NCBI GenBank assembly: GCA_017451485.1 | Contig: JAFTOG010000008.1 | Span: 1 to 64,000, forward strand | Direction of reading: 5' to 3' | DNA length: 64,000 nucleotides | DNA from: Clostridia bacterium | GTDB taxonomy: Bacteria; Bacillota; Clostridia; Oscillospirales; CAG-272 | In this document: positions 46,450-60,871 of the stretch, piece after piece | Position numbering within the stretch: the first letter of the stretch is position 1 | Layout: the number at the start of each line of letters is the position of its first letter | Position numbers and translations under genes: made by a program | The notes under the pieces: model-generated | Databases searched by the model: none | What the model was told of the DNA's origin: nothing | The model's input: only the letters and a program-made list of their open reading frames with translations

Positions 46450-47109
<660 letters not shown>

Positions 47110-47578: not shown

Positions 47579-48271
47579 CTAGTCCTCTACAACTTCCATG
47601 CTTTCTATGATTTTTTCTATTTCAGAAAGTTCAATGGTGTTTGGAAGTTTCATCTTAAATATATATCCATTATTGGACCATACAAAATAGTAACTACAGC
47701 TTTTCTCCATATAGTATACATCACATAACTCCATATTAATTTGTGTATATTCTACGGATTTATTATGTAAAAATGCTTGATAGTTTTCCTCCAATATAGT
47801 TTGTTCCAGTCGAATAAACTCATTATTATTATTTTTCCAAGTTGTAACTGATAATGTCCCATAATTAGTTGTCTTTTGAATATGAAATTCATCAATTTCA
47901 CAAGAGGGCAAATATACTTTTTCAATTGTTTCCGGAGGCTTTGCACCTTCATCTTCTTCTACAAAAATACTTATAAAACTTTCATAAGTATTTACAATAA
48001 ATTTAACAACAGGCTCTCTTATAGAAGATATACTCATTATAAGTGTAAGAGTTATCAATATAGCAGCTAATACACCTACTAATCTTTTAGGGATAAACCT
48101 ATTTGCATTACGGGTGTATTTTTTATGTTTGTTTAGTAACTTCTGTATTTCTATTTTGTATTTTTCAGAAAATACAACTTTTTCGTCCGGGAGGGCATCT
48201 ATGACTGCCATTTCTGCAAGCTCTTCTTCAAGCAAAGCTTCTTTTAAAAGTTTTATTTGATTATTAGTCAT
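47579..48271 (-). CDS. Anti-sigma factor-like membrane protein with DUF4367-like domain
   Basis: This 230-aa protein has a cytoplasmic N-terminal part (about 1-62), one membrane helix (about 63-83; LVGVLAAILITLTLIMSI) and an outer domain whose end (YTQINMELCDVYYM, YYFVWSNNGYIFKMKLP, IEKIIESM) resembles the DUF4367 group. Its start overlaps the end of the ECF sigma gene by 8 bases, as is usual for sigma/anti-sigma pairs. It probably holds the sigma factor inactive. Confidence 0.8.
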   Translation of the reverse strand: MTNNQIKLLKEALLEEELAEMAVIDALPDEKVVFSEKYKIEIQKLLNKHKKYTRNANRFIPKRLVGVLAAILITLTLIMSISSIREPVVKFIVNTYESFISIFVEEDEGAKPPETIEKVYLPSCEIDEFHIQKTTNYGTLSVTTWKNNNNEFIRLEQTILEENYQAFLHNKSVEYTQINMELCDVYYMEKSCSYYFVWSNNGYIFKMKLPNTIELSEIEKIIESMEVVED

Positions 48272-48803
48272 AGTCTTCCTCCTTAAATTTTTCTTTTAAT
48301 ATTTCCACAGCCCTGTTGAAGCGGGCATTTGCAGTAGATTTTGGAATATTAAGAATTTCAGCAATTTCTCTGAAGTTCATATTATCTTGAAAATATAAAG
48401 ACAGAATACTCTTGTATTTTGTATCCATACCCTTTATGTATTTTTTTATTCTCGCAAGCTTGTCTAAATCAATATATTCTTCTAACAAATCATCATTAGA
48501 GGAATTGTCCATATATTCAATATTACTACGGTTTTTAATATTTTTGTTTATCACAAGAATAGATGCATGTTTAGTTAGACGGTAAATATATATCTTAAGT
48601 AAATCTTTAGAAAGAGGTTTTAATTTTTCTATGTAAATAGCAATATTTTTAAATGCAATTTGGGAAGCATCTTCCGCATAATGATGGTCTTTTATGTAGT
48701 ATTTAGCCACTTTGAATACGTAATTTTTGTATTCATAATATATTTTTTCAAATAAGTCCGTATCGTTGGGATCAAAAATTAATGATAAATATAGCTCTAA
48801 CAT
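48264..48803 (-). CDS. ECF-type RNA polymerase sigma factor
   Basis: This 179-aa protein has sigma-70 region 2 (FEKIYYEYKNYVFKVAKYYI, then AEDASQIAF) and region 4 (LSLYFQDNMNFREIAEIL, IPKSTANARFNRAVEIL). It reads away from the peptide locus, but a shared unusual leader motif (48907-48945 and 61648-61684) in front of two exported-protein genes could be its target. It is paired with the anti-sigma gene. Confidence 0.88.
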   Translation of the reverse strand: MLELYLSLIFDPNDTDLFEKIYYEYKNYVFKVAKYYIKDHHYAEDASQIAFKNIAIYIEKLKPLSKDLLKIYIYRLTKHASILVINKNIKNRSNIEYMDNSSNDDLLEEYIDLDKLARIKKYIKGMDTKYKSILSLYFQDNMNFREIAEILNIPKSTANARFNRAVEILKEKFKEEDYD

Positions 48804-48906
48804 CTTATTTTTTCCCTTCTTTTTTCGTCCATATTAGCATATTTTCTTCAATTTGTCAAATTTTTTAAAATTTTTCTAAACTTTTTTCAAATTTTTTTGT
48901 CCAAAA

Positions 48907-48945
48907 CGAAAAAACCGAACTATATATTTATAGAAGGGCAAAATA
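48907..48945 (+). promoter_or_regulatory. Conserved leader motif, copy A
   Basis: The string CGAAAAAACCGAAC, then TATTTATAGAAGGGCAAAATA (in two parts), stands 64 bases before the small secreted protein gene. It aligns with 61648-61684 over nearly its full length. CCGAAC could be an ECF -35 element. No sigma-A boxes are evident here. Confidence 0.5.
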
Positions 48946-49008
48946 AATTATACTTTTACCGACATCTTGTGGCCTTTCTTTACAAGACGGTAGCAGAAAG
49001 AGGGAAAT

Positions 49009-49422
49009 ATGAAGAAGTTTTTATCATTATTTTTGGCGATTATTATGTGTGCATTGATGGTTTTACCCATTTATGCAGCAGAAGAAATGGTAACTCCACG
49101 TTATAACAATACCTTTAGTACAAGTGCTAATTTTTCAATTAGCGATTCCGGATTGGCTACTATAACTTTAAATTACATGGGATTTACAGATATTGCTACC
49201 GATGCAACAATAACATGCAAGATAGAAAAGAAATTTCTTATTTGGTGGAAAGAAGTGGATGGTGCTTCGTGGGTTGATTATGTAGTAGGGTGCGATAATG
49301 TTGTTCAACATACATTTCAATTATCAAAAACTGGAACATACAGACTTTCTTACGAATTTGTAATTAATGGAACAGGTGGTGCTTCTGATGTTATTTCTAG
49401 CACAATTCAAGATGAATACTAA
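49009..49422 (+). CDS. Small secreted beta-rich protein (137 aa)
   Basis: The N-terminus MKKFLSLFLAIIMCALMVLP is a clear signal peptide with likely cleavage after IYA. The mature part of about 110 residues is beta-rich, with evenly spaced strands, one Cys pair candidate and a repeated aromatic pattern; it resembles small exported clostridial proteins but I cannot name a family. It is preceded by the leader motif copy A and followed 26 bases later by the first radical SAM gene, so it may belong to the same operon. Confidence 0.7.
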   Translation: MKKFLSLFLAIIMCALMVLPIYAAEEMVTPRYNNTFSTSANFSISDSGLATITLNYMGFTDIATDATITCKIEKKFLIWWKEVDGASWVDYVVGCDNVVQHTFQLSKTGTYRLSYEFVINGTGGASDVISSTIQDEY

Positions 49423-49448
49423 AAATCATTAGAAAAAGGAGATACATT

Positions 49449-51041
49449 ATGACTGATTCTATATCAATTGCTTTTTTTGATAATGAAAGTTTTCTTCACA
49501 ATTTATATATCGGTTATGGTATCTCATCACTAAAACGAATATTTGAAAATATTAAATCAACCTATATCAACGAGAAAAACTACCAATCCGTTTCAAGTCA
49601 GATAGACTCTAAGTACGTTTTAGTGTATCTATCTGAAAATAAATATTCCTTGTTTAATAAATTTATTGAATGTATAAGTGATGATATTGTTTTGATTGCT
49701 TGTCACTATGTTCCAACAATGTTTGGAAAAGAAATAATGGAGTCTAATAAAAGAATTAATTACGTGTTATTTGGTGAAATCGATCAAACATTAGAGGAAT
49801 TCTTTAACTGTTTAATTAACAAAGAACCTTTATCCAAATGCAAAGGTGTTTTCTCAAGAGACGGTGATAAAATTTTATTTAGTGGCAAGAGAGAACTAAT
49901 TACAGATTTAGATGATATAAACTTTCCGGATAGAGATTTATTTGGTAAAAATAGAGGTATATTTCATGTCATCGCATCTAGAGGATGCGACGGAGCTTGT
50001 ACTTTTTGTGATAGAAATTATTTATATAAGCTTGTTTGTCAAAAGCAACGATTCAGAAGTATAAATAATGTTATATCAGAAGTGGATTATTTAGTTGATA
50101 ACTATAATTGCAAATTTATTAATTTTGCAGATTCTACTTTTTGTAATGATTCTAACTTAGAGGAAAGGCTACTCGAACTTTATGAAAAATTATTATGTAA
50201 GCCATATTGGGTTCAGTTCTTTATAAATTTAAGAATTGAACATATAAGTGACAAAACATTAGAAATTTTAAACAAGTTGAAAACAGTTGGCTTGGGAAGA
50301 GTTTTTATAGGCATTGAAAGTTTTAGCGACAAGGACTTACATTTATACAACAAGCAAACAAGCAGCAAAATAATATTAAACTCATTGAACAAGATAAATT
50401 CTCTAAGTACCGTGATGGATGATTTTCAATTGGATTTTGAGTATGGTTTTATTATGTTTAATCCTTATACAACGGTTAGTGATTTAAAAATGAATTTAAA
50501 GATGTTAGAAGAAAATAATATTTTTTTAAATCCGAATATGATGTTGAGCCGACTTGTTTGCAGTAGTTTTACACCTATAACAAAGAAGATAGACTCAGAT
50601 AATTTGTTGAATGATCCGTATCATCATATGAATTTGTTAGAGAAAACATCATCTGATATAAAATATAAGTTCAAACATAAAGAAACAGCTAAGATATTTG
50701 ATGCGTTTCTGATGTGTAAAAATCAACTATCAATCGTTATTCCGAGTAATATAGTCTACATAAGAAATAGATATTACAAATATTTTGGAAGAGACATCTA
50801 TTTAAATAGGTTGGATGATGCATATTTGGAATGGGAAGAAACAGTTTCAAAATTTTGTTATGATATTTGCAGAAAAATTATTGAAATGGAGTCAGCTGGG
50901 AATTCATCTATGCAAGTGGTAAATGATGAATGTGCTACTTTTAAAAACGTTTTAAACAACTTAAACGGAAAATTAAATACAACAAAAAATAGAGTAATGA
51001 TTCAACTGCAAAAAATAAATCAAATCATTTATGACAAATAA
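49449..51041 (+). CDS. B12-type radical SAM enzyme (530 aa)
   Basis: Residues about 1-130 look like a cobalamin-binding fold. The radical SAM site follows as Cys180, Cys184 and Cys187 (SRGCDGACTFCDRN). Then come ADSTFCND, RVFIGIESF and a long helical C-terminus ending in coiled coil. Enzymes of this class methylate unreactive carbons or make other radical changes, often on peptides. B12 binding is inferred from layout; the usual DxHxxG motif is not evident, so cobalamin may not bind. AAAAGGAG precedes the start. It overlaps the next gene by 11 bases. Confidence 0.8.
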   Translation: MTDSISIAFFDNESFLHNLYIGYGISSLKRIFENIKSTYINEKNYQSVSSQIDSKYVLVYLSENKYSLFNKFIECISDDIVLIACHYVPTMFGKEIMESNKRINYVLFGEIDQTLEEFFNCLINKEPLSKCKGVFSRDGDKILFSGKRELITDLDDINFPDRDLFGKNRGIFHVIASRGCDGACTFCDRNYLYKLVCQKQRFRSINNVISEVDYLVDNYNCKFINFADSTFCNDSNLEERLLELYEKLLCKPYWVQFFINLRIEHISDKTLEILNKLKTVGLGRVFIGIESFSDKDLHLYNKQTSSKIILNSLNKINSLSTVMDDFQLDFEYGFIMFNPYTTVSDLKMNLKMLEENNIFLNPNMMLSRLVCSSFTPITKKIDSDNLLNDPYHHMNLLEKTSSDIKYKFKHKETAKIFDAFLMCKNQLSIVIPSNIVYIRNRYYKYFGRDIYLNRLDDAYLEWEETVSKFCYDICRKIIEMESAGNSSMQVVNDECATFKNVLNNLNGKLNTTKNRVMIQLQKINQIIYDK

Positions 51042-51831
51042 GAAAATAAATAAGCAATTTTTAAAACAATTAAAGTTTTATTCGAACTACGAGACTGATA
51101 AACGCAATCATATAATAAAACCTTTAAAATTTACTTGCGAGGATAACAAAGAGTATTATGCAGAATTTAGGGTCAAATACAAATTAGATAGATTTATAAA
51201 TGCTAATGATGATGAAGATACCGTAAAAAAAATTCTGAGATGGACATATGAAATACTTTTGCATTCGACGTATTATGAAAATACTATAAACTATAAAAGT
51301 TCAATTGATATTATTGAATTCTCCAGAGCGAACAAGCTATGCTTGAACTGCTACTGTCATTCGTATGTGTTAAAGGATGCGTTATGTAGTGTTGGAATTA
51401 CTGCGAGATTAGTTTATTGTATGCCAATAAATGGTGATTATTATGGAAATCACGTAATAGTTGAGTATTACAGTAAGAATCACCAAAAATGGATTTTTGT
51501 TGATCCCACTTATAATGTACTATTTACTAATAAAAGAGGCGTTCCCGTTAGTCTTTTAGAATTTAGAGAAAATATTATAAAAAACAGAAAAAATCTCATT
51601 GTAATCAATAACAGAATACAACCTTTTTCCAGTGAAATAAAGAGAAGAGAATTGTATCGTGGTTATTGTGAAGATATTATCCCTTTATTAGTAATGTTAC
51701 AGTACGAGAGAATAACTGAAGAAAGTGAGGTGGAGTATATAAGACTGGTTGCGGTAAATTACTGCATTAAAAATAAAGAGAAAAAAATAGATAATTACAT
51801 TTATACTTCTTTGACAGGTCTTCTATACTAA
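51031..51831 (+). CDS. Transglutaminase-like protein
   Basis: This 266-aa protein has a transglutaminase core with Cys109 (CYCHSYVLKDAL), His141 (GNHVIVEYY) and Asp158 (WIFVDPTYN) in the correct order and spacing. GITARLVYC is the usual strand after the Cys helix. It could crosslink, hydrolyse or transfer at peptide amide bonds in the RiPP pathway. No signal peptide is seen, so it acts in the cytoplasm. It overlaps the preceding gene, which indicates joint expression. Confidence 0.82.
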   Translation: MTNKKINKQFLKQLKFYSNYETDKRNHIIKPLKFTCEDNKEYYAEFRVKYKLDRFINANDDEDTVKKILRWTYEILLHSTYYENTINYKSSIDIIEFSRANKLCLNCYCHSYVLKDALCSVGITARLVYCMPINGDYYGNHVIVEYYSKNHQKWIFVDPTYNVLFTNKRGVPVSLLEFRENIIKNRKNLIVINNRIQPFSSEIKRRELYRGYCEDIIPLLVMLQYERITEESEVEYIRLVAVNYCIKNKEKKIDNYIYTSLTGLLY

Positions 51832-51838
51832 AAATCAA

Positions 51839-53185
51839 ATGACAAAATATAAGACATCTCAGTTTAATTATATTCTGAGTAACGGTTCAGATGAATTAAG
51901 ATTGTACAATTCTTTAAAAGGAAAAAACAGTTTATTAATTATAAAAAACGATAAAATCAAAAAGTTTTATAGAATACAAGAAAACTGTAATTTAGATGAG
52001 TGGGAAAAAGATGAGGATTTTTTGAAATTAAAAAAGTTGGGGTACTTTGTAGAAAGCGAAACTGATGAATTAATGTTAGCTAATCTAAAGAAAAATGATG
52101 TTATCAATTATCCCGGATTGGTCTTGACAATAATGCCAACTGAAGATTGCAATTTTAGATGCCAATATTGTTATGAAGATCATAAAAAAGGAAAAATGTC
52201 CAAGAAAGTACAGGATTCAATTGTTAAATTTGTTAGAAAAAATATCAATAATTATACCGCTTTAAATATAGGGTGGTTTGGAGGAGAGCCTTTGGAGGCA
52301 CTGGATGTTGTAGAAAACATTTCCAGAAGATTAATACAAGTATGTAAAGTAGCTAGAAAACCATATGCTGCCGGGATGACGACAAATGGTTATGATTTGA
52401 CTTTGGATACATTTATTAAATTGCTAAATTTAAAAATATATGAATATCAAATTACAATTGACGGATTAAAAAGCACTCATGATAAGTATAGGTATTTAAA
52501 AGATTTTTCCGGTTCATTTGATCGTATAATCGAGAATATTAAGGAAATATCATCTATTAAACAAAATCGCTTTAAAGTAGTAATAAGAACAAATTTTACA
52601 AAAGATATTATAAATAACATTAAAGAATATTTAGAGTTTTGTGAAAAACTATTCGGTTCTGATGACAGATTCTCTCTTTCTGCTCATTTGGTTGAAAATT
52701 GGGGAGGAGAAAGCATAGATAAATTGGAAGATCAACTTGTAGGTGGTAATAATTACGGGAATTTAATAAAGAAAATTTTACAAATAAAACCAAAAATCAG
52801 TTTTGAATCTCATTTGATAGATTTGGATTCTTATAATGCTAAGTGTTATGCAGCTTTAAGAAATTCTTATGTAATAGGCTCTGATGGACTTGTCTATAAG
52901 TGTACAGAGGATTTTAATCTTCCGGAAAACTGTATAGGTTATTTAAGTGATGAGGGAGATTTAGTGATTGATCAATCTAAAAATGCGAAATGGGTTGATA
53001 TGGAAAGTTTAAAAGAAGAAAAATGTTCATATTGCGTATATAGAGGTTGTTGTTTAGACGGACCATGTCCTAAAGTAAAAATTTTAGCAGAAAAGGAAAA
53101 AGGTTATAATTCTTGTCCGAGAACTAAACATAGCATACATGATATTATGATGTTAATCAATGAACGGTTTTATGAAATACTATGA
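51839..53185 (+). CDS. Radical SAM/SPASM peptide maturase
   Basis: This 448-aa protein has an N-terminal region (about 1-85) like the wing-type recognition part of many maturases, then the radical SAM site Cys104, Cys108, Cys111 (CNFRCQYCYEDH), GWFGGEPLEA and TTNGYDL, and a SPASM end with many cysteines (KCTED, CSYCVYRGCCLDGPCP, CP). SPASM enzymes hold extra Fe-S clusters and make thioether or C-C links in RiPPs. The order next to an ACP-like gene and a Cys-rich peptide fits the 'CcpM'-type maturases of Clo7bot systems, from memory. No clear ribosome site precedes the start; coupling to the previous gene is likely. Confidence 0.9.
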   Translation: MTKYKTSQFNYILSNGSDELRLYNSLKGKNSLLIIKNDKIKKFYRIQENCNLDEWEKDEDFLKLKKLGYFVESETDELMLANLKKNDVINYPGLVLTIMPTEDCNFRCQYCYEDHKKGKMSKKVQDSIVKFVRKNINNYTALNIGWFGGEPLEALDVVENISRRLIQVCKVARKPYAAGMTTNGYDLTLDTFIKLLNLKIYEYQITIDGLKSTHDKYRYLKDFSGSFDRIIENIKEISSIKQNRFKVVIRTNFTKDIINNIKEYLEFCEKLFGSDDRFSLSAHLVENWGGESIDKLEDQLVGGNNYGNLIKKILQIKPKISFESHLIDLDSYNAKCYAALRNSYVIGSDGLVYKCTEDFNLPENCIGYLSDEGDLVIDQSKNAKWVDMESLKEEKCSYCVYRGCCLDGPCPKVKILAEKEKGYNSCPRTKHSIHDIMMLINERFYEIL

Positions 53186-53208
53186 TATTTGATTTGTAAG
53201 AGGTATAT

Positions 53209-53436
53209 ATGAAATATAGAGATCAAGTTGTTCAGGTCTTGGAAGAAATGGGTATTTTAATAGAAAGTGATGAATATGATGTAAATTTGCAAGATTTTAT
53301 TGTTGATTCAATACAATTTATTACTTTTATTGTAAATGTTGAGGAAAAATTGAATTTAACTTTTCCGGACGAATATCTAAATTATGATAACATAGAAACC
53401 TTACATAAATTTTGTGAGATATTGGAAAATATATAA
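53209..53436 (+). CDS. Acyl-carrier-like protein
   Basis: This 75-aa protein has an ACP fold signature: FIVDSIQFITFIVNVEEKL, with Ser34 of the DS motif available for a phosphopantetheine arm, and an acidic helix end. It belongs to the small carrier-like proteins of peptide maturation loci rather than fatty acid synthesis, judged from its neighbours. Its role is unknown; it may carry an acyl or aminoacyl group, or serve as a partner. GTAAGAGG lies upstream. Confidence 0.85.
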   Translation: MKYRDQVVQVLEEMGILIESDEYDVNLQDFIVDSIQFITFIVNVEEKLNLTFPDEYLNYDNIETLHKFCEILENI

Positions 53437-53484
53437 TGGTTGTGGCAAGCTTATTACCAATACTTAAGAGAGGAGGATGTTCTG

Positions 53485-53625
53485 ATGAAGGAAACAAAAA
53501 AACTTTTTAAAAAAACCAACTGTAAAGTTGATACTAAAAAAGTAAGGTTGTACAATGCCCCTGAAGGAAACAACTGCAAATGTAATAATAAAAAAGATAA
53601 CTGCAGTTGTGGATACTCCAACTAA
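53485..53625 (+). CDS. Cysteine-rich RiPP precursor peptide (46 aa)
   Basis: The ATG at 53485 has GGAGG eight bases upstream (53472-53476); the longer frame from 53440 has no ribosome site. The leader (about residues 1-28) is Lys-rich and carries one Cys (Cys13). The core is NNCKCNNKKDNCSCGYSN, with Cys31, Cys33, Cys40 and Cys42 in a CxC-x6-CxC pattern. It lies between the maturase/ACP genes and two exporters, exactly where a substrate belongs. No double-glycine site is seen; cutting may occur at or near APEG. Function could be antimicrobial or metal related; this is inference. Confidence 0.82.
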   Translation: MKETKKLFKKTNCKVDTKKVRLYNAPEGNNCKCNNKKDNCSCGYSN

Positions 53626-53702
53626 TTTATTTTATAGTACTATATAACTCTTAGCACTACCATAGGTAATAAGCTTGTTATGATATATTGAAGAGGTGCT
53701 TA

Positions 53703-55478
53703 ATGAAAAAAATAATAAAATCTTTTGAATATTCGTATAAATGTATTTCATTCATGTGGAAAAAGAGCAAAGGATATTTTTTACTTACAATTATAAGTAT
53801 TATTGTAAATTCTATACAAGCATTTCCGGGAATGTATTTAGTTAGTTATTCTATTGATCTTTTGACAAACAAGGTTGATTTTAATAAATATTTAAGAATT
53901 ATAGGATTTATAGTTGGTTTGATGCTATTAACATCTATTCTTTCGATGTTAATAAACAGTATTTTGGAATATTCCAAGAAAAAATTTTATACAAAAATAA
54001 GACAGGATATAAATTATATTTGTTTACATACAGATTATGAAAAAATACAAAGCAAGTCTTTCATAGAAGAGAAGGATTTCGCTTTAAGTGCACTAAATAA
54101 TGATAGTTTAGAATTGTATATACAAAGTGTAAAAACACTAATAAGTAGTATTATCGTAATTGCGGGAACTTTGTATATTATATCATTTGCATCTCTGTTT
54201 ATTTTAATTCCTCTGGCTATAACTATTATTCTTATATCTTACAATAGTTACTTGAATTGTATTCAAAACTATGTTGAAACAAAGGAAGAAATAGAATATG
54301 GGAAGAAATCTACTTATCTACAAAGTATAAGTAGGGACTTTTCTTATGCTAAAGAAATAAGAGCTTTCGATCTTAAGGATAAATTCAAAAAAAGAATGGA
54401 CGAGGTAGCTGAGCTTTTATTAAGGATAAAAGAAAATCGCAGAAAAAAGAGAAGACCATCCAATTTTCTTGTGTATTCTGCGGAAGCAATATTGCAGATA
54501 GCAATATATTTATATTTCGGATATAAGGTTTTTGCTTCAATTATTACGTTAGGTCAATTTTCTTTATATTCAAATGCAGTTGAAAAATTAAAAAGCTCTC
54601 TTGAAAATATTATGTTTGTAGTTACTGAATTTATGGTTAATACAGAGTATGTTCAAGGCTTTTTTAATTTTATGAAAACTAATGTTAGAACATTAAAACA
54701 TGATAAAATGGATATATCTTCGGCAAAAATAGAGTTCAAAGGCGTAAGTTATAAATATCCTAAAGCTGAAACATATGCATTAAAGGACGTAAATTTAAGT
54801 ATAGATGCAGGAGAAACTCTTTTAATTGTTGGAGAGAATGGAGCAGGAAAAAGTACATTTATAAAATTGCTATGCGGATTGTACAAGCCTACAGAAGGCA
54901 GAATTTTGATTAACGGTATAGATATATCGACAATAGATTCAAAAGAGTATGTAAAAAATATATCTGCCGTATTTCAAGATTATAAACTTTTTGCATTATC
55001 CATAGCAGATAACATTGATGCATTGAAAGATTTTAATAGCAGCAAGATGGATAAATCTCTTGAGCAAGTAAACCTTTTAGAAAAGGTAAGGTTGTCAAAT
55101 GGGGTAGATACACAGCTATATCGGATATTTGATGAAAATGGTTGTGAGTTTTCAGGTGGCGAGATGCAAAGACTTGCCATTGCAAGGGCAATATACAAGG
55201 ATGCTCCGATTTTAGTATTAGACGAACCAACATCCGCTCTGGATCCTAAGGTTGAGTATGAAATATATAATAGTTTTAAGCAAATGTCAGAAAACCGTAC
55301 AGCAGTATACATATCTCACAGATTATCAAGTATTAAATTCTCAGATAAGATAGCAGTATTTGACAAAGGCGAAATTGTAGAGTACGGAACGCATGATGAT
55401 CTTATTGCAAAAAAAGGAATATATGAGGAATTATATTCTATTCAGGCAAGCCTTTATCATAGGGAGGAGCAGCAATGA
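53703..55478 (+). CDS. ABC exporter, half-transporter 1
   Basis: This 591-aa protein has six membrane helices (about residues 20-310) and a nucleotide-binding domain with Walker A GENGAGKST, signature FSGGEMQRLAIARA and Walker B ILVLDEPTSALDP. It lacks a C39 peptidase domain. The start at 53703 has GAGGTG upstream. With the next gene, which overlaps by 4 bases, it probably forms a heterodimer that exports the mature peptide. Confidence 0.9.
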   Translation: MKKIIKSFEYSYKCISFMWKKSKGYFLLTIISIIVNSIQAFPGMYLVSYSIDLLTNKVDFNKYLRIIGFIVGLMLLTSILSMLINSILEYSKKKFYTKIRQDINYICLHTDYEKIQSKSFIEEKDFALSALNNDSLELYIQSVKTLISSIIVIAGTLYIISFASLFILIPLAITIILISYNSYLNCIQNYVETKEEIEYGKKSTYLQSISRDFSYAKEIRAFDLKDKFKKRMDEVAELLLRIKENRRKKRRPSNFLVYSAEAILQIAIYLYFGYKVFASIITLGQFSLYSNAVEKLKSSLENIMFVVTEFMVNTEYVQGFFNFMKTNVRTLKHDKMDISSAKIEFKGVSYKYPKAETYALKDVNLSIDAGETLLIVGENGAGKSTFIKLLCGLYKPTEGRILINGIDISTIDSKEYVKNISAVFQDYKLFALSIADNIDALKDFNSSKMDKSLEQVNLLEKVRLSNGVDTQLYRIFDENGCEFSGGEMQRLAIARAIYKDAPILVLDEPTSALDPKVEYEIYNSFKQMSENRTAVYISHRLSSIKFSDKIAVFDKGEIVEYGTHDDLIAKKGIYEELYSIQASLYHREEQQ

Positions 55479-57262
55479 AAAAAATAAAAGATCTTTTTAA
55501 GGCATTCGGTCAATTACCAAGATTATTTGGGTTAGTATTTAGAACCGATAAAAAGTATCTTGTTTATATGATTTGTGAAACCATTTGTTTTGCGTTATTA
55601 CCTTATCCAACTATGTTTTTGGCAAAATACTCACTTGATGCACTGGAAAAGAAAATATCATATACAGAGTTTGCAGTTGTATGTACGTCACTTATTTTGT
55701 TGCAATTTTCTATTTCAATGTTGAAGTCTCTTTTTAACAGTATACGTCCCGGCAGAACATCATATGTAGTTGGTAAATTAAATAACGATTTCCATAAAAA
55801 AAGCATGGAAATCGATTATGAGCTGCTTGCTGAGAAAAAAACGCAGGAGCTACAAGCATATGCTGGAGATTTTATAAAATGGAAATTAAATAATACTGTT
55901 TGGAATTTTATCTCCCTTTTTTCAAGTTTAATTTCATTTTTAATATCTTGTGTAATTTTGTTGAATATCAATGTGTTTATTATATTTATAATTGCAGCAG
56001 TTATGTGCTTGGATGCTCTTTTTGCGATGATATTTTCAAAGCCTCAATTTAAGATAAATAAAAAAATCATCCAAAATGATAGATATATAAATTATTATAA
56101 TGACGTTTCGGTAAGTGAAAATGCAGCCAAGGATATCAGAATATTTGATATGAGTGGTGGCATACAAGCAAAAGCGGAATCATACTATAAAAGCAATTTG
56201 AAATTAGAAAAGAAAAAAAGATTTTTTGCCATTATACAAGAACTATTCAATTATCTTATTTCACACTCAATGGATTTTGCCGTTTATGTGCTTCTTGGAG
56301 TATATGTATTGAAAAGTGAATTATCTCTTGGAGAAATGTCCCTTGCAATAGGTAATATTGTAACTTTTCGTCAATATTTTAAAAAAGTATCTTCCACTCT
56401 TGTTGGATATTCTGACACTGCAAAATATGTTGAATATTATGACTCATTTATGTCATTAGAAAGTAAATTCAGAAAAACAGGACAAGAAAATCTTATATTA
56501 AATAAAACAGACAAATTTACAATAGAATTTAGAAATGTATCATTTCGTTATCCCGGTCAAGAAGAATATGTGCTTAGGAATTTTAATGTAATTATTAATA
56601 ATAATGAAAAAATATCTATAATAGGTGAAAATGGTGCTGGAAAAAGTACTTTTATAAAGTTACTTATGCGTCTTTATGACCCAACAGACGGTGAAATTTT
56701 ATTTAACGGTACAAATATTAAAAATTTCGACTATGATCAATACTTATCTATTTTTACTCCTGTTTTTCAAGATTTTAAATTGTTTGCTTTCACTTTAGAG
56801 GAAAATATATCCTCTTTTAAATGTGATGACTCTGATAAGGTTATAGATGCTGCCGGCAAAGCAGGAATAGCTGAATATATAGAAGATTTACCCGATAAAT
56901 ATAATACATTTATCTCAAAAAGATTTTGCGAAGGTGGAGTGGATTTTTCCGGGGGAGAACAACAAAAAATTGCAATTGCCAGAGCGTATTTTAAAGATAA
57001 CTCTGCGATTACAATACTTGATGAGCCGACAAGTGCATTAGATCCAAAAGCAGAGTATCAAATATACAAGGAGTTTAATGATTTGATAGGAGATAATACA
57101 GCATTTTTTATTTCTCATCGTTTAGCAAGTTCAAAATTCTGTGATAAGATTATGGTTATAAAAGACAAGAAACTTTTTGAATATGGTACACATAAAGAAC
57201 TAATAGCTAAAGATGGATATTATAGTGAATTATATAATATGCAATCTAGTTATTATGAATAA
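55475..57262 (+). CDS. ABC exporter, half-transporter 2
   Basis: This 595-aa protein has six membrane helices and a complete nucleotide-binding domain: Walker A GENGAGKST, signature FSGGEQQKIAIARA and Walker B ITILDEPTSALDP. It also lacks a C39 domain. The ATGA overlap with the first half-transporter and similar length support a heterodimer. Confidence 0.9.
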   Translation: MKKIKDLFKAFGQLPRLFGLVFRTDKKYLVYMICETICFALLPYPTMFLAKYSLDALEKKISYTEFAVVCTSLILLQFSISMLKSLFNSIRPGRTSYVVGKLNNDFHKKSMEIDYELLAEKKTQELQAYAGDFIKWKLNNTVWNFISLFSSLISFLISCVILLNINVFIIFIIAAVMCLDALFAMIFSKPQFKINKKIIQNDRYINYYNDVSVSENAAKDIRIFDMSGGIQAKAESYYKSNLKLEKKKRFFAIIQELFNYLISHSMDFAVYVLLGVYVLKSELSLGEMSLAIGNIVTFRQYFKKVSSTLVGYSDTAKYVEYYDSFMSLESKFRKTGQENLILNKTDKFTIEFRNVSFRYPGQEEYVLRNFNVIINNNEKISIIGENGAGKSTFIKLLMRLYDPTDGEILFNGTNIKNFDYDQYLSIFTPVFQDFKLFAFTLEENISSFKCDDSDKVIDAAGKAGIAEYIEDLPDKYNTFISKRFCEGGVDFSGGEQQKIAIARAYFKDNSAITILDEPTSALDPKAEYQIYKEFNDLIGDNTAFFISHRLASSKFCDKIMVIKDKKLFEYGTHKELIAKDGYYSELYNMQSSYYE

Positions 57263-57268
57263 AATAGT

Positions 57269-59107
57269 ATGGAAAAATATGATTGTGTAATTATTGATAG
57301 TGGTGTAGATTCATCTCATCCTAAGTTACAGACATGTAAATTAGAAGGTATGTCTTTTTTTCTTGAGAATGGTGTAGTTCGTATAGCAAAAGAGGATTTT
57401 AAAGATAAAATAGGGCATGGAACTGCTATATTTGGAATTATCAGTTCAAATTGTCCAAAAGACACTAGTATATACAACATATCTATTTTTAATGATAGTG
57501 ATTCAGTAGACGAGGAATTGTTATATTCCGCTTTAGAATATGTTTATAAAAATATAAAATGCAAAGTTGTTAATATTAGTATGGGTATAAAAACCTGTGA
57601 TCAGTTGGAACGTTTAAATAATATTTGTGAAAAATTTAACCGTAAAAACGTAATGCTTGTTTCGGCATTTGATAATGATGGTTCAATGTCATATCCTGCA
57701 TGTTTAGAAAATGTAATAGGTATAGACGCATCATCTGAGTATTACAACATTACAGAATTTGAGTACGTGCATGGAAGAGAAATTAATTTTCGAGCTAAAG
57801 GTGGAATACAGAAGGTATTATGGACTAGTCCTAAATATGCAATTGTTCAAGGAAGTAGTTTTGCTTGTGCTTATATGACTAGTAATATTTTAAATGTTTT
57901 AGAAAGGCATCCCAATTATAATAAAAATGATGTAATAGAATATTTAAAAACGAGGTCAAAAAATACAATAGAATCTTCAGATGCTGTACAGGAGAATGAA
58001 GTCAATAATTTTTTTAATCCTGAAAAAGTATTAATTTTTCCATTCAACAAAGAAATGCATAGCTTAGTAGCTTTTAATGATTTGTGTAATTTTACTATAT
58101 CAAAAATTTGTGATATTCGAATGTCAAGCAATATTAATAAACGCATAGGAAGTTTGCTACAATATTCTAACGATTCAATTATAAATGATATGATAATTGA
58201 GAATATAGATAGTGTTGTATGGGATGAAACATTTGATACTGTTATACTGGGACATGTTGAACTATTAAATCAATTAACCAAGAGAGACATTACAACAGAA
58301 ATAATAGAAAAATGTAAGTTTTATCATAAAAATTTAATATGTATGGATGATTTATCAAAGTATAAGGAAGAAATAAATTCATTGGTACAAAGTAACTGTA
58401 AAGTATATTATTTATGTAACTCGACAGTAGGTATATCTAATCAATTTGGGAAATTATATCTTACTAACAGACCGGTAGTCTGTGTCGCAGGAACCAATAG
58501 AAGTCAAGGCAAGTACACTTTACAATTGTTATTGAGACGACATCTACTTGAACTAGGTTATTCTGTTGGCCAGTTAGGTACTGAACCAACATCATTGCTT
58601 TTTGGTATGGATGAAGTCTTTCATTATGGTTATTCTGTTATAAATACTTCATATTTTGAACAAACTGTTTTACGTGTAAATAGATTAATGAAAAGAATAT
58701 CCGACAAAAACCCGGATATTATTCTCACAGGTGTTCAATCAGGTACAGTCCCATATATTTATGACAACTTGCAATATTTAACAAACAGGCAATTTGAAGT
58801 TTTAATGGGTATAATTCCGGATATTGTTGTGTTATGTATTAACCCTTTTGATGATGTTGATTATATTGAAAGGAGTATAAAAGCGTTAGAGAGCATGGTG
58901 AATACCCGTGTAATTGCTTGCGTTTTATATCCTATGAAATTTAGCGATAATTTTTCCACTTACAGTAAAAAAGAAAAAATAACAAATGTTGAAGAATTTA
59001 ATCTTAAAACTGAATTATACAGAGCATTAAATATTCCGATTTTTTCTTTTGGAAAAGATGATGTAAGCGAGTTGACAGAATTAATTATTAATTATTTTTC
59101 AAGTTAG
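57269..59107 (+). CDS. Subtilase fused to a P-loop (DUF1611-like) domain
   Basis: Residues about 1-235 form a compact S8 serine protease with Asp10 (IIDSGVD), His50 (GHGTAIF), Asn136 (oxyanion site, SAFDNDG) and Ser197 (GSSFACA). There is no signal or propeptide, so it acts in the cytoplasm. Residues about 250-395 are of unknown fold. From residue 402 a P-loop domain follows with VVCVAGTNRSQGKYT (loop 407-416), GQLGTEPTSLLFG and GVQSG, like DUF1611-type NTPases. It may cut the leader from the modified peptide, driven or gated by nucleotide. From memory, similar proteins occur in Clo7bot loci (TIGR04066 type). Confidence 0.82.
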   Translation: MEKYDCVIIDSGVDSSHPKLQTCKLEGMSFFLENGVVRIAKEDFKDKIGHGTAIFGIISSNCPKDTSIYNISIFNDSDSVDEELLYSALEYVYKNIKCKVVNISMGIKTCDQLERLNNICEKFNRKNVMLVSAFDNDGSMSYPACLENVIGIDASSEYYNITEFEYVHGREINFRAKGGIQKVLWTSPKYAIVQGSSFACAYMTSNILNVLERHPNYNKNDVIEYLKTRSKNTIESSDAVQENEVNNFFNPEKVLIFPFNKEMHSLVAFNDLCNFTISKICDIRMSSNINKRIGSLLQYSNDSIINDMIIENIDSVVWDETFDTVILGHVELLNQLTKRDITTEIIEKCKFYHKNLICMDDLSKYKEEINSLVQSNCKVYYLCNSTVGISNQFGKLYLTNRPVVCVAGTNRSQGKYTLQLLLRRHLLELGYSVGQLGTEPTSLLFGMDEVFHYGYSVINTSYFEQTVLRVNRLMKRISDKNPDIILTGVQSGTVPYIYDNLQYLTNRQFEVLMGIIPDIVVLCINPFDDVDYIERSIKALESMVNTRVIACVLYPMKFSDNFSTYSKKEKITNVEEFNLKTELYRALNIPIFSFGKDDVSELTELIINYFSS

Positions 59108-59196
59108 TATTTCCGAGAAAAAATAATTTATTGGCAAATGAATAATTATTCATGAAAGTGTAGAATAACTTGAAATGTGTTATTAAGGAGATTATT

Positions 59197-60162
59197 ATGA
59201 AATTGCCATTTGAAAAAAATCCATATATTGTAACATATCATAATAAAGCCTTCCCTTTAGGAGTAATACAAGGAAACTCTAAATTTGATTTAACGCCTTG
59301 GATTGCTGGAAAGTTTATCAATTGTTTTTTTGATGAATCTTCTGCTAATCATAAATTCAATTTTTATACTTTTGATTCATGGGGTGAAAAGGATGGGGTG
59401 AATTCTTCTCAAACGATACGGCTTGACAAGAAAATGTTTAAGGAACTTTCTATTGATATCATAAAAACAGTTAAGTGTTTATTGGATAATGGATACTATG
59501 TACATGGTTCTTATAATGAAAAATATATTAAAGAAAAGAAGTCTTACGAAAAATATGATTATATGCATGATTATATTTTAATCGGTTATGAGGAAGATGG
59601 AATCCTATATTCAGTAGGATATACCAAATATGATAGATATGAGGAGTTTACTATTTCTTTCGATGAGTATTTGAACTCTTTAATAAATTCAACTAATGCA
59701 TACATTGATATTAACACATGTAAATATCATGAGGAAGGAAATTTTTCATTTAATAAATCTGGATTTATTCAAGAGCTTTCGGATTATTTGAGTTCAAACA
59801 TACCTTTTTCAGCATATGCTAACAAGATATATGGATTAAAAGCAATGGAAGCATTAAAAGATTTTGTAATTTCAAATGATTTTAAAATTGATGTTAGATA
59901 CATAAGAGCTTTCATGGAACATAAGATATTAATGCAATTGCGGATTTCATATGTTTATCAGACTAACAGTAGTGAAATTGTTGATAAATATAAAAAGGTT
60001 AGTGATGAAGCTGGGAAAATATATTTATTAAGTCTTAAATTTAATATTACAAAAAACAAACAAATTTTGAAAACCATTGAAAATGGGTTTAACTTGATTT
60101 TACAGATAGAAAGGCAATTATTACCATTAGTAATTAAAGATATGGAAAGTTTTAATACATAG
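59197..60162 (+). CDS. BtrH/C39-like protein of the peptide locus
   Basis: This 321-aa protein starts at ATG 59197 behind AAGGAG; the frame's earlier TTG is weaker. Residues about 1-165 resemble the butirosin BtrH N-terminal (papain-like) group: DYILIGYEEDGILYSVGYTKYDRYEEFTIS-type text is typical. I cannot locate a sure catalytic Cys, so it may be a scaffold or acyl-transfer protein. BtrH passes acyl groups from ACP to substrate; a carrier-like protein is encoded in the same locus, which fits. The C-terminal half is helical. The family call is tentative. Confidence 0.55.
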   Translation: MKLPFEKNPYIVTYHNKAFPLGVIQGNSKFDLTPWIAGKFINCFFDESSANHKFNFYTFDSWGEKDGVNSSQTIRLDKKMFKELSIDIIKTVKCLLDNGYYVHGSYNEKYIKEKKSYEKYDYMHDYILIGYEEDGILYSVGYTKYDRYEEFTISFDEYLNSLINSTNAYIDINTCKYHEEGNFSFNKSGFIQELSDYLSSNIPFSAYANKIYGLKAMEALKDFVISNDFKIDVRYIRAFMEHKILMQLRISYVYQTNSSEIVDKYKKVSDEAGKIYLLSLKFNITKNKQILKTIENGFNLILQIERQLLPLVIKDMESFNT

Positions 60163-60228
60163 AAAATCCTCTATTGTGATTTTATTAATGTATTACAAAA
60201 GCATAATGGGTTACCTAGGAGAATATAT

Positions 60229-60537
60229 ATGTATGATATAGATTATTTCAAACTTTTTATAAAAGAAGCCTTAACTAATTGTAAAGATGGTGATTTAAAA
60301 CAGGTTTTAATGATTTACAGAAACTTGTTTTTAAATTTTAAAAAAGAAAATTTTCATGATTATTGTATAGAAAAATATGGTGAATATAAGGCTATATGTA
60401 TAATAGAAATATTAAAAATATTATCAATTGATTATGTTTTAATAAACGATAGTTTCGCAAATACGCAAGAAATAAATACTGACAAAGTGAATAATCTAAG
60501 GGAAGCACTGGAAACATTAAATCTTTTAGTGGGATAA
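60229..60537 (+). CDS. Hypothetical helical protein (102 aa)
   Basis: The frame begins MYDIDYFKLFIKEALTNCK with AGGAGA upstream. It is helical and has no signal peptide. I do not recognise it. It ends the AT-rich peptide locus, 66 bases behind the BtrH-like gene, and may be an immunity or accessory factor; that is only a guess from position. Confidence 0.6.
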   Translation: MYDIDYFKLFIKEALTNCKDGDLKQVLMIYRNLFLNFKKENFHDYCIEKYGEYKAICIIEILKILSIDYVLINDSFANTQEINTDKVNNLREALETLNLLVG

Positions 60538-60624: not shown

Positions 60625-60651
60625 ACCCCCTAAAATCAGAGGAAAGGGGGT
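60625..60651 (+). promoter_or_regulatory. Hairpin that hides a ribosome binding site
   Basis: ACCCCCT (60625-60631) is the exact complement of AGGGGGT (60645-60651), which contains the ribosome site of the XRE gene. Folding would close translation. A TTCAACT/AGTTGAA dyad lies 30 bases earlier (about 60593-60622). Confidence 0.55.
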
Positions 60652-60658
60652 GAAAAAT

Positions 60659-60871
60659 ATGTATGATACTGCTCATTACGGTCGAATGATACGAGAACGT
60701 AGAGAAAAGGCACATTTGACGGTTGAAGAAGCCGCCGAAAGATATGATTTGAGTATAACAGGACTCTTAAAAATAGAATTCGGCGACTCTGATCCGAAAT
60801 TGTCCACCATATTAAGGATCGCCATAGTTCTGAAAATGGACTTAGGCGATCTTAATTATTGTCTAAATTGA
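60659..60871 (+). CDS. Small XRE-family regulator (70 aa)
   Basis: The protein is one helix-turn-helix domain: GRMIRERREKAHLTVEEAAERY, then LSITGLLKIEFGDSDPKLSTIL. I take ATG 60659 rather than GTG 60650, which lies within the ribosome site. It likely controls itself and the next gene. The ribosome site is placed in a hairpin (60625-60651). Confidence 0.8.
   Translation: MYDTAHYGRMIRERREKAHLTVEEAAERYDLSITGLLKIEFGDSDPKLSTILRIAIVLKMDLGDLNYCLN

Follow-up and report, generated by a model that had tools for sequence, protein, structure and literature searches.

A closely spaced run of genes in a Clostridia bacterium (GenBank assembly GCA_017451485.1, contig JAFTOG010000008.1, positions 1 to 64,000) raises the question of what kind of peptide is made where two radical S-adenosylmethionine (SAM) enzymes, a carrier protein and a protease fusion are encoded side by side. 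The window is this whole 64,000-nucleotide stretch, and cluster positions are given in its numbering. According to the list of open reading frames (ORFs) and Pfam and NCBIfam scans, the cluster genes between 49,449 and 60,162 all lie on the + strand and either overlap or follow one another closely (Table 1). An earlier note, made from the sequence alone, had read the locus as making a Cys-rich, ribosomally synthesized and post-translationally modified peptide (RiPP). Every gene that it named was found in this arrangement, with domains above the Pfam cut-offs for most; the protein-by-protein profile search that it proposed gave no match above cut-off for BtrH_N, B12-binding or the TIGR04065 to TIGR04069 group. 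On sequence grounds, we conclude that the locus is a RiPP cluster, with a ribosomal precursor, a conserved leader, a variable core and adjoining maturation genes. We further propose, with about even confidence, that its product would be a peptide with thioether cross-links that receives an acyl group from the carrier protein once its leader has been removed inside the cell.

The assignment as a RiPP locus begins with the precursor. Short ORFs in 62 loci encode 101 peptides of common build: they open with a Lys-rich stretch (M-K-K-x-L-x-K-P), continue with a VxLYxxE-like motif and finish rich in Cys. Their composition up to the motif Glu (20% Lys, 1% Cys) differs from that beyond it (15% Cys, 14% Gly, 12% Asn). 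When a precursor profile that excluded the window peptide was tested on the 1,656 short ORFs of the whole window, the 46-residue peptide came first (E = 0.0014; next unrelated ORF, E = 2), and the 100 other precursors, which also trained the profile, all outscored every one of 2,020 shuffled peptides. The gene starts at an ATG with a strong ribosome-binding site; an alternative TTG at 53440 would give 61 residues. The Cys-rich RiPP locus foreseen in the earlier note was thus borne out, both by this independent profile and by the recurrence of the core in 87 loci. Rows of ~4 to 8 related precursor genes stand ahead of one fusion gene in loci of Treponema and in metagenome-assembled genomes (MAGs) of other Spirochaetaceae (L140, L143, L145 and L150).

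Relatives of the cluster were found through the fusion protein, which joins a subtilase to a TIGR04066/DUF1611 domain. Within the taxonomic family of the source genome, 17 of 196 genomes gave matches, about ten of them long. An alignment of 18 fusions was then used to scan a collection in which each species is represented by a single genome; 118 relatives were confirmed, of which 80 entered the analysis, and 87 non-redundant loci in about seven phyla were assembled overall. Hosts include Lachnospiraceae, Oscillospiraceae, other Clostridia, Paenibacillus, Tumebacillus, Treponema and other Spirochaetes, as well as one Bacteroidota MAG, Gemmatimonadetes, Latescibacterota, KSB1 and Holosporales. 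No relatives were found in the genome collection with the window maturase alone, because that maturase is too divergent for a pattern search. Viral contigs held no relatives of the fusion, and plasmids gave no fusion match covering 80% of the query, those listed being plain subtilases over 38%. The shared core consists of a SPASM maturase, a carrier, a peptide with a Lys-rich leader and a Cys-rich end, peptidase-less ATP-binding cassette (ABC) exporters and the protease-TIGR04066/DUF1611 fusion. Fifty loci have flanks of 6 kb or more to either side; of these, 46 contain the carrier, 39 each the SPASM maturase and a BtrH-like protein, 10 the transglutaminase-like gene and 4 the B12-type radical SAM gene. 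One locus (L104) has the window order minus the B12 gene (transglutaminase, SPASM, carrier, ABC, ABC, fusion, BtrH-like), and L119, L129 and L136 keep most of it. The neighbourhood survey proposed in the earlier note therefore recovered the core, but the full set with both the B12-type and transglutaminase-like genes was found nowhere outside the window. These two genes occur in 4 and 14 of the 87 loci, respectively. The note had inferred that they and the BtrH-like protein extend a known plan and could make a new product class; the plan does differ from those described, but these two genes are optional in it. By sequence, the distinguishing part is instead the near-universal carrier together with the fusion. 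Three relatives are broken (L071, L082 and L083, the last also short of flanks), with a split ABC gene, a truncated maturase or a cut fusion, which suggests frequent gain and decay. The family is widespread, and we found no description of it in the literature.

The closest described relatives are the CLI_3235/CcpM clusters, which hold a TIGR04068 radical SAM enzyme, TIGR04066, the carrier-related TIGR04069, a subtilase, an ABC transporter and a Cys-rich peptide; their member SacP23 of Paenibacillus polymyxa #23 was made in Bacillus subtilis and is active against several Gram-positive bacteria, and the role of TIGR04066 in such systems was guessed to be immunity (PMC10731318). Shared with the window are the maturase, TIGR04066, the carrier-related protein, the subtilase, the ABC transporter and a Cys-rich precursor with a short leader, and the leader profile of the window family matches CcpM precursors with E down to 1e-6. 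The two nevertheless differ: subtilase and TIGR04066 are fused in the window family and unfused in the CcpM-type loci examined; the described system has a single ABC protein, and no transglutaminase, B12 enzyme or BtrH-like protein is listed for it. The window maturase misses the TIGR04068 cut-off (87.7 versus 500 bits), and the fusion misses that of TIGR04066 (89.9 versus 200) with homology over 360 residues. The window carrier has no TIGR04069 match at E<=1, and the window peptide has no NCBIfam match, thus none to a TIGR04065-type precursor. A Roseburia intestinalis L1-82 cluster has the same kinds of genes (TIGR04068/04066/04069/subtilase/ABC), with the protease unfused and no precursor recognised there (PMC4573289). 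The earlier note had named Clo7bot as the nearest plan. By score, the nearest maturase profiles are Clo7bot (TIGR04334, 162.6 versus 600), TIGR04463 (203.9 versus 525) and CefB, at 163 to 204 bits and all below cut-offs of 525 to 600; no carrier/DUF1611 fusion was shown for these in this analysis, and Clo7bot was dropped as parent family on the maturase cut-offs. We conclude from sequence comparison that CLI_3235/CcpM (SacP23) and not Clo7bot is the nearest described system, and that the window family is a related but distinct, undescribed subfamily, because the curated cut-offs are missed, the protease and TIGR04066 are fused and the carrier Ser is kept. As a further separating feature, some relatives bear phosphopantetheinyl transferase (PPTase), AMP-ligase and fatty-acid genes.

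The phosphopantetheine Ser is present in 63 of 63 carriers of the window family. In Paenibacillus polysaccharolyticus (L131), one gene run contains a ketosynthase, FabZ, FabI and an Sfp-type PPTase with the precursor (25 residues), carrier, fusion, SPASM maturase and transglutaminase, along with a protein above the BtrH_N cut-off and an AMP-binding protein with a peptidyl carrier protein (PCP) domain. A first carrier, a second ketosynthase and FabG were also read there from the sequence, unscanned. The type II fatty-acid-like gene set and PPTase stand directly ahead of the RiPP genes (L131:4106-9508); this cultured species probably has a lipopeptide pathway here. Another relative (L129) has a second PP-binding protein, below the Pfam cut-off, and a PPTase directly behind the fusion. 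Fusion and carrier also stay together where the SPASM maturase is missing (L174, L178 and L179), which we count in favour of acylation. Five such loci of Latescibacterota and Gemmatimonadetes (these three with L177 and L181) often have a BtrH-like protein, and possibly represent a different product class. In L081, a carrier is fused to a ferredoxin-like tail with two [4Fe-4S] clusters (L081:10822-11289), a hint of contact between carrier and radical SAM enzyme.

In the fusion protein, Asp10, His50 and Ser197 of the subtilase half are invariant in 18 of 18 aligned sequences. No signal sequence was seen in its translation, and a Pfam scan found no C39 peptidase domain in the exporters; the leader would therefore most simply be cleaved inside the cell. 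QhpE of quinohemoprotein amine dehydrogenase maturation is likewise a small intracellular subtilase working with a radical SAM maturase, but it is not fused to DUF1611, and the window score against NF049966 (111.8) is below the cut-off of 165. The DUF1611 half, modelled from 70 sequences with a predicted local distance difference test (pLDDT) score of 92.5, matched the DUF1611 structures 2g0t (Z 28.9) and 2obn (Z 27.5) and the N-acetyltransferase DgcN (7xrj, Z 23.6). On this model, it is a candidate acyltransferase.

BtrH itself works in the butirosin pathway and is not known to act on RiPPs. The label BtrH-like given in the earlier note was not recoverable by sequence for the window protein and holds at the level of fold. 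Pfam and NCBIfam sequence searches did not detect BtrH_N (PF14399) in it, and relatives in L087 and L091 reach 13 to 16 bits against a cut-off of 29.7. When the profile of the family was set against the genuine BtrH_N protein of L131, the match was only short and weak (probability, 1.4), so that the link to BtrH rests on the fold. Modelled from 37 sequences (pLDDT, 93), the protein matched CcbD (Z 18.8; 292 residues, root mean square deviation of 3.6), AziU3 (17.6) and CtaG (16.8) over nearly its full length, with the next rows at 10.2. CcbD and LmbD use Cys, His and Glu in a ping-pong mechanism that converts an acyl group on a carrier into an amide; CcbD accepts fatty-acyl groups, and its natural reaction moves proline from a carrier (PMC12945683). 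CtaG is a peptidyl transferase on carrier-bound substrates (PMC6772006). These enzymes share with the BtrH-like protein both the fold (Z 16 to 19) and a partner carrier in the same cluster, but they work in the lincosamide and closthioamide pathways and not on RiPPs.

We count the recurrence of carrier, SPASM maturase and BtrH-like protein, the invariant Ser, the carrier-related genes of L131 and L129, and the CcbD and DgcN folds in favour of acylation, and propose the following course. The 46-residue precursor, with its short Lys-rich leader ending in the VxLYxxE-like motif, would be the substrate. In its core, the SPASM maturase would form Cys thioether cross-links, to which the B12-type enzyme (methylation) and the transglutaminase-like protein would add optional changes. 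The host AcpS would turn the carrier into its holo form, and the carrier would present a fatty-acyl or aminoacyl group. The subtilase half of the fusion would remove the leader inside the cell, and its DUF1611 half and the BtrH-like protein would move the acyl group onto a peptide amine, most simply the new N terminus. The paired peptidase-less exporters would then send out the finished product. From the genes, domains, conservation, catalytic residues, folds and carrier Ser, which the data show, we infer the cross-linking, the acylation with its acceptor site and acyl donor, and the sequence in which these events occur. Still more tentative, and in our judgment somewhat doubtful, is the bolder statement that these loci form a phylum-spanning RiPP class in which the bifunctional fusion both cuts the leader and acylates the exposed amine, while the Cys-less protein of amide synthase fold docks the carrier. 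Acylated ribosomal peptides, the end result predicted here, are represented by the selidamides, nostolysamides and lipolanthines. These use other acyltransferases, GNAT-type or linked to polyketide synthases, and we know of no protease-DUF1611 fusion among them.

Several observations weigh against acylation. The P-loop domain of the DUF1611 half also resembles the ATP-using enzymes BioD and CTP synthase, so that this half could work instead as a ligase or kinase. CcbD/LmbD and CtaG have a Cys-His-acid triad, whose catalytic Cys is missing from the window BtrH-like protein and most of its relatives (no conserved Cys at columns 13 to 19), although His124 is kept; this weakens the case for a catalytic acyltransferase, and the protein may serve in docking or in non-covalent transfer. 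The source genome encodes one AcpS-type PPTase elsewhere, and two other carriers, but no cluster PPTase, and the window holds no acyl-loading enzyme. The Ser is also absent from four of five carrier-like proteins of CcpM-type loci, a count in which the L094 carrier was judged by eye only and beside which L092 has a Ser-bearing carrier upstream of its maturase. SacP23 had a blocked N terminus in Edman degradation and eluted in a 60 to 70% acetonitrile gradient (PMC10731318). Both features fit acylation by analogy, with other causes possible; since most CcpM-type carriers lack the Ser, the blocked terminus may have such a cause, and as direct proof of acylation it is weakened. If the carrier were a structural or docking partner of the radical SAM enzyme, for example in electron transfer or substrate delivery, the product would be cross-linked only. 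The Ser-less CcpM-type carriers, whose gene is kept, and the ferredoxin-like tail in L081 speak for this alternative; we regard it as improbable, given the Ser in all carriers of the window family, the PPTases inside two clusters and the persistence of the carrier with the fusion where SPASM is missing.

An amino acid rather than a fatty acid could be presented by the carrier, in which case the RiPP would gain an aminoacyl residue of non-ribosomal origin. The AMP-binding protein of L131, which is A-domain-like and has its own PCP, adjoins the BtrH_N protein; DltC is the second-best NCBIfam match of the window carrier (24 bits); and CcbD naturally transfers carrier-bound proline. However, L131 bears the fatty-acid gene set too and an adenylation enzyme is absent from the window, and we consider this variant unlikely. 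Much less credit goes to the view that the locus makes an ordinary ranthipeptide or sactipeptide like those of Clo7bot or CcpM systems and that the other genes beside it are there by chance. The maturase would fit, matching these families over most of its length, as would the leader shared with CcpM precursors, but the curated cut-offs are missed by wide margins and the fusion recurs across all 87 loci. Least probable by far is a decayed island without function: the locus lies in a stretch of lowered G+C content, 28 other genomes of the genus have no close maturase match, and the relatives L071 and L082 are broken, yet every window gene is open and its catalytic residues are kept.

The two radical SAM enzymes differ in how firmly they can be placed. 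For the SPASM maturase, a CxxxCxxC motif and seven further Cys are invariant in 15 of 15 aligned sequences, and the cluster-binding Cys pattern is accompanied by a short Cys-rich partner peptide, as in SPASM maturases generally. The enzyme at 49449..51041 matches B12/radical SAM families (TIGR04013, E = 3e-15), all below cut-off, and its best PDB sequence match is OxsB, both in line with the earlier label of a B12-type enzyme; its B12-binding half, by contrast, had no Pfam match. Relatives of the enzyme occur in L080, L116 and L163, the first with PF02310 at 28.3 bits, below the cut-off of 32.1. It is probably of the cobalamin-dependent type, and a tailoring role in C-methylation is possible.

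The transglutaminase-like proteins keep Cys-His-Asp in 14 of 14 aligned relatives. A G/S-x-N..C core motif is found in all 13 transglutaminase loci with precursors versus 17 of 49 other loci (P = 1.4e-5, for a motif picked post hoc). On a tree, about 1.8 of only 4 well-supported independent pairs agree and none is contrary; with just these 4 pairs, the link is only suggestive. Perhaps this step acts on Asn next to the leader. A second, different Cys-His-Asp transglutaminase-like family (U279) occurs in L080 (5841-6680), L085, L116, L122, L128 and L132. In all six of its loci that also have precursors, W or F is the last residue of the peptides, often as CGLxW, versus 3 of 56 others by a strict pattern.

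Table 1. Features of the cluster and its surroundings in the window
Feature	Position	Strand	Evidence and remarks
DUF4367 protein, likely anti-sigma partner	47579..48271	-	PF14285, 35 vs 22; counterpart in L082
ECF-like sigma factor, divergent, possible cluster regulator	48264..48803	-	PF08281 above cut-off; counterpart in L082
Small secreted protein, 137 aa, accessory	49009..49422	+	No Pfam match; homologue beside truncated relative cluster in L082
Radical SAM enzyme, probably cobalamin-dependent, optional tailoring	49449..51041	+	PF04055, 47.1 bits, above cut-off
Transglutaminase-like protein	51031..51831	+	PF01841 Transglut_core, 26.1 vs cut-off 23; overlaps radical SAM gene upstream
Radical SAM/SPASM peptide maturase, core gene	51839..53185	+	Radical_SAM, 53.9 bits, above Pfam cut-off
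Acyl/peptidyl carrier protein with phosphopantetheine Ser (DSI)	53209..53436	+	PF00550 PP-binding, 27.3 vs 20.8
Precursor peptide, 46 aa: K-rich leader with VRLY motif, Cys/Asn/Gly-rich core GNNCKCNNKKDNCSCGYSN	53485..53625	+	
ABC exporter half-transporter 1, no peptidase domain	ATG 53703 (or TTG 53688)..55478	+	ABC_tran above cut-off
ABC exporter half-transporter 2, no peptidase domain	55475..57262	+	ABC_tran above cut-off; 4-bp overlap with transporter 1
Fusion protein, whole gene	57269..59107	+	Subtilase + TIGR04066/DUF1611
Fusion, N-terminal half: intracellular QhpE-like subtilase, predicted leader peptidase	57269..58015	+	PF00082 Peptidase_S8, 58.4 bits; NF049966, 111.8 bits
Fusion, C-terminal half: TIGR04066/DUF1611 domain, candidate acyltransferase	58016..59107	+	PF07755, 37.1 vs 25; TIGR04066, 89.9 bits
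BtrH-like protein, carrier-dependent amide synthase fold	ATG 59197..60162	+	Structure model, fold match
102-aa ORF, doubtful cluster member	60229..60537	+	No relative found
Small XRE-type helix-turn-helix protein	60650..60871	+	PF01381; same profile matched near 13 relative loci

The surroundings suggest, from sequence, that the cluster was horizontally acquired. G+C content is 27 to 30% at 48 to 62 kb versus 41 to 44% at 40 to 44 kb and 41% at 62 to 64 kb, and a serine recombinase was read from the sequence at the left edge of the AT-rich island (46,495-47,109). Among 29 genomes of the genus, only the source genome has a close maturase match, the other 28 reaching about 70 bits at most; together with the AT-rich stretch, this points to recent arrival. 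The earlier note had the locus begin at 49009 and listed the B12-type enzyme first; 49009..49422 is the small secreted protein and not the first maturase. The extracytoplasmic function (ECF) sigma factor, DUF4367 protein and 137-residue secreted protein of the window (47579-49422) recur beside the truncated relative (L082:8093-10004), and an ECF sigma gene is present in the SacP23 cluster too.

If our reading is right, radical-SAM RiPP maturation and acyl transfer from a carrier protein would be joined in one widespread and apparently undescribed family, and acylation from a carrier would be unusual for a ribosomal peptide. The family includes the cultured strains Paenibacillus polysaccharolyticus, P. 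phocaensis, Tumebacillus flagellatus, [Clostridium] polysaccharolyticum and Acetatifactor muris. The proposal would also give a job to TIGR04066 and the carrier-related proteins, whose roles have been unexplained in the SacP23/CcpM antibacterial systems.

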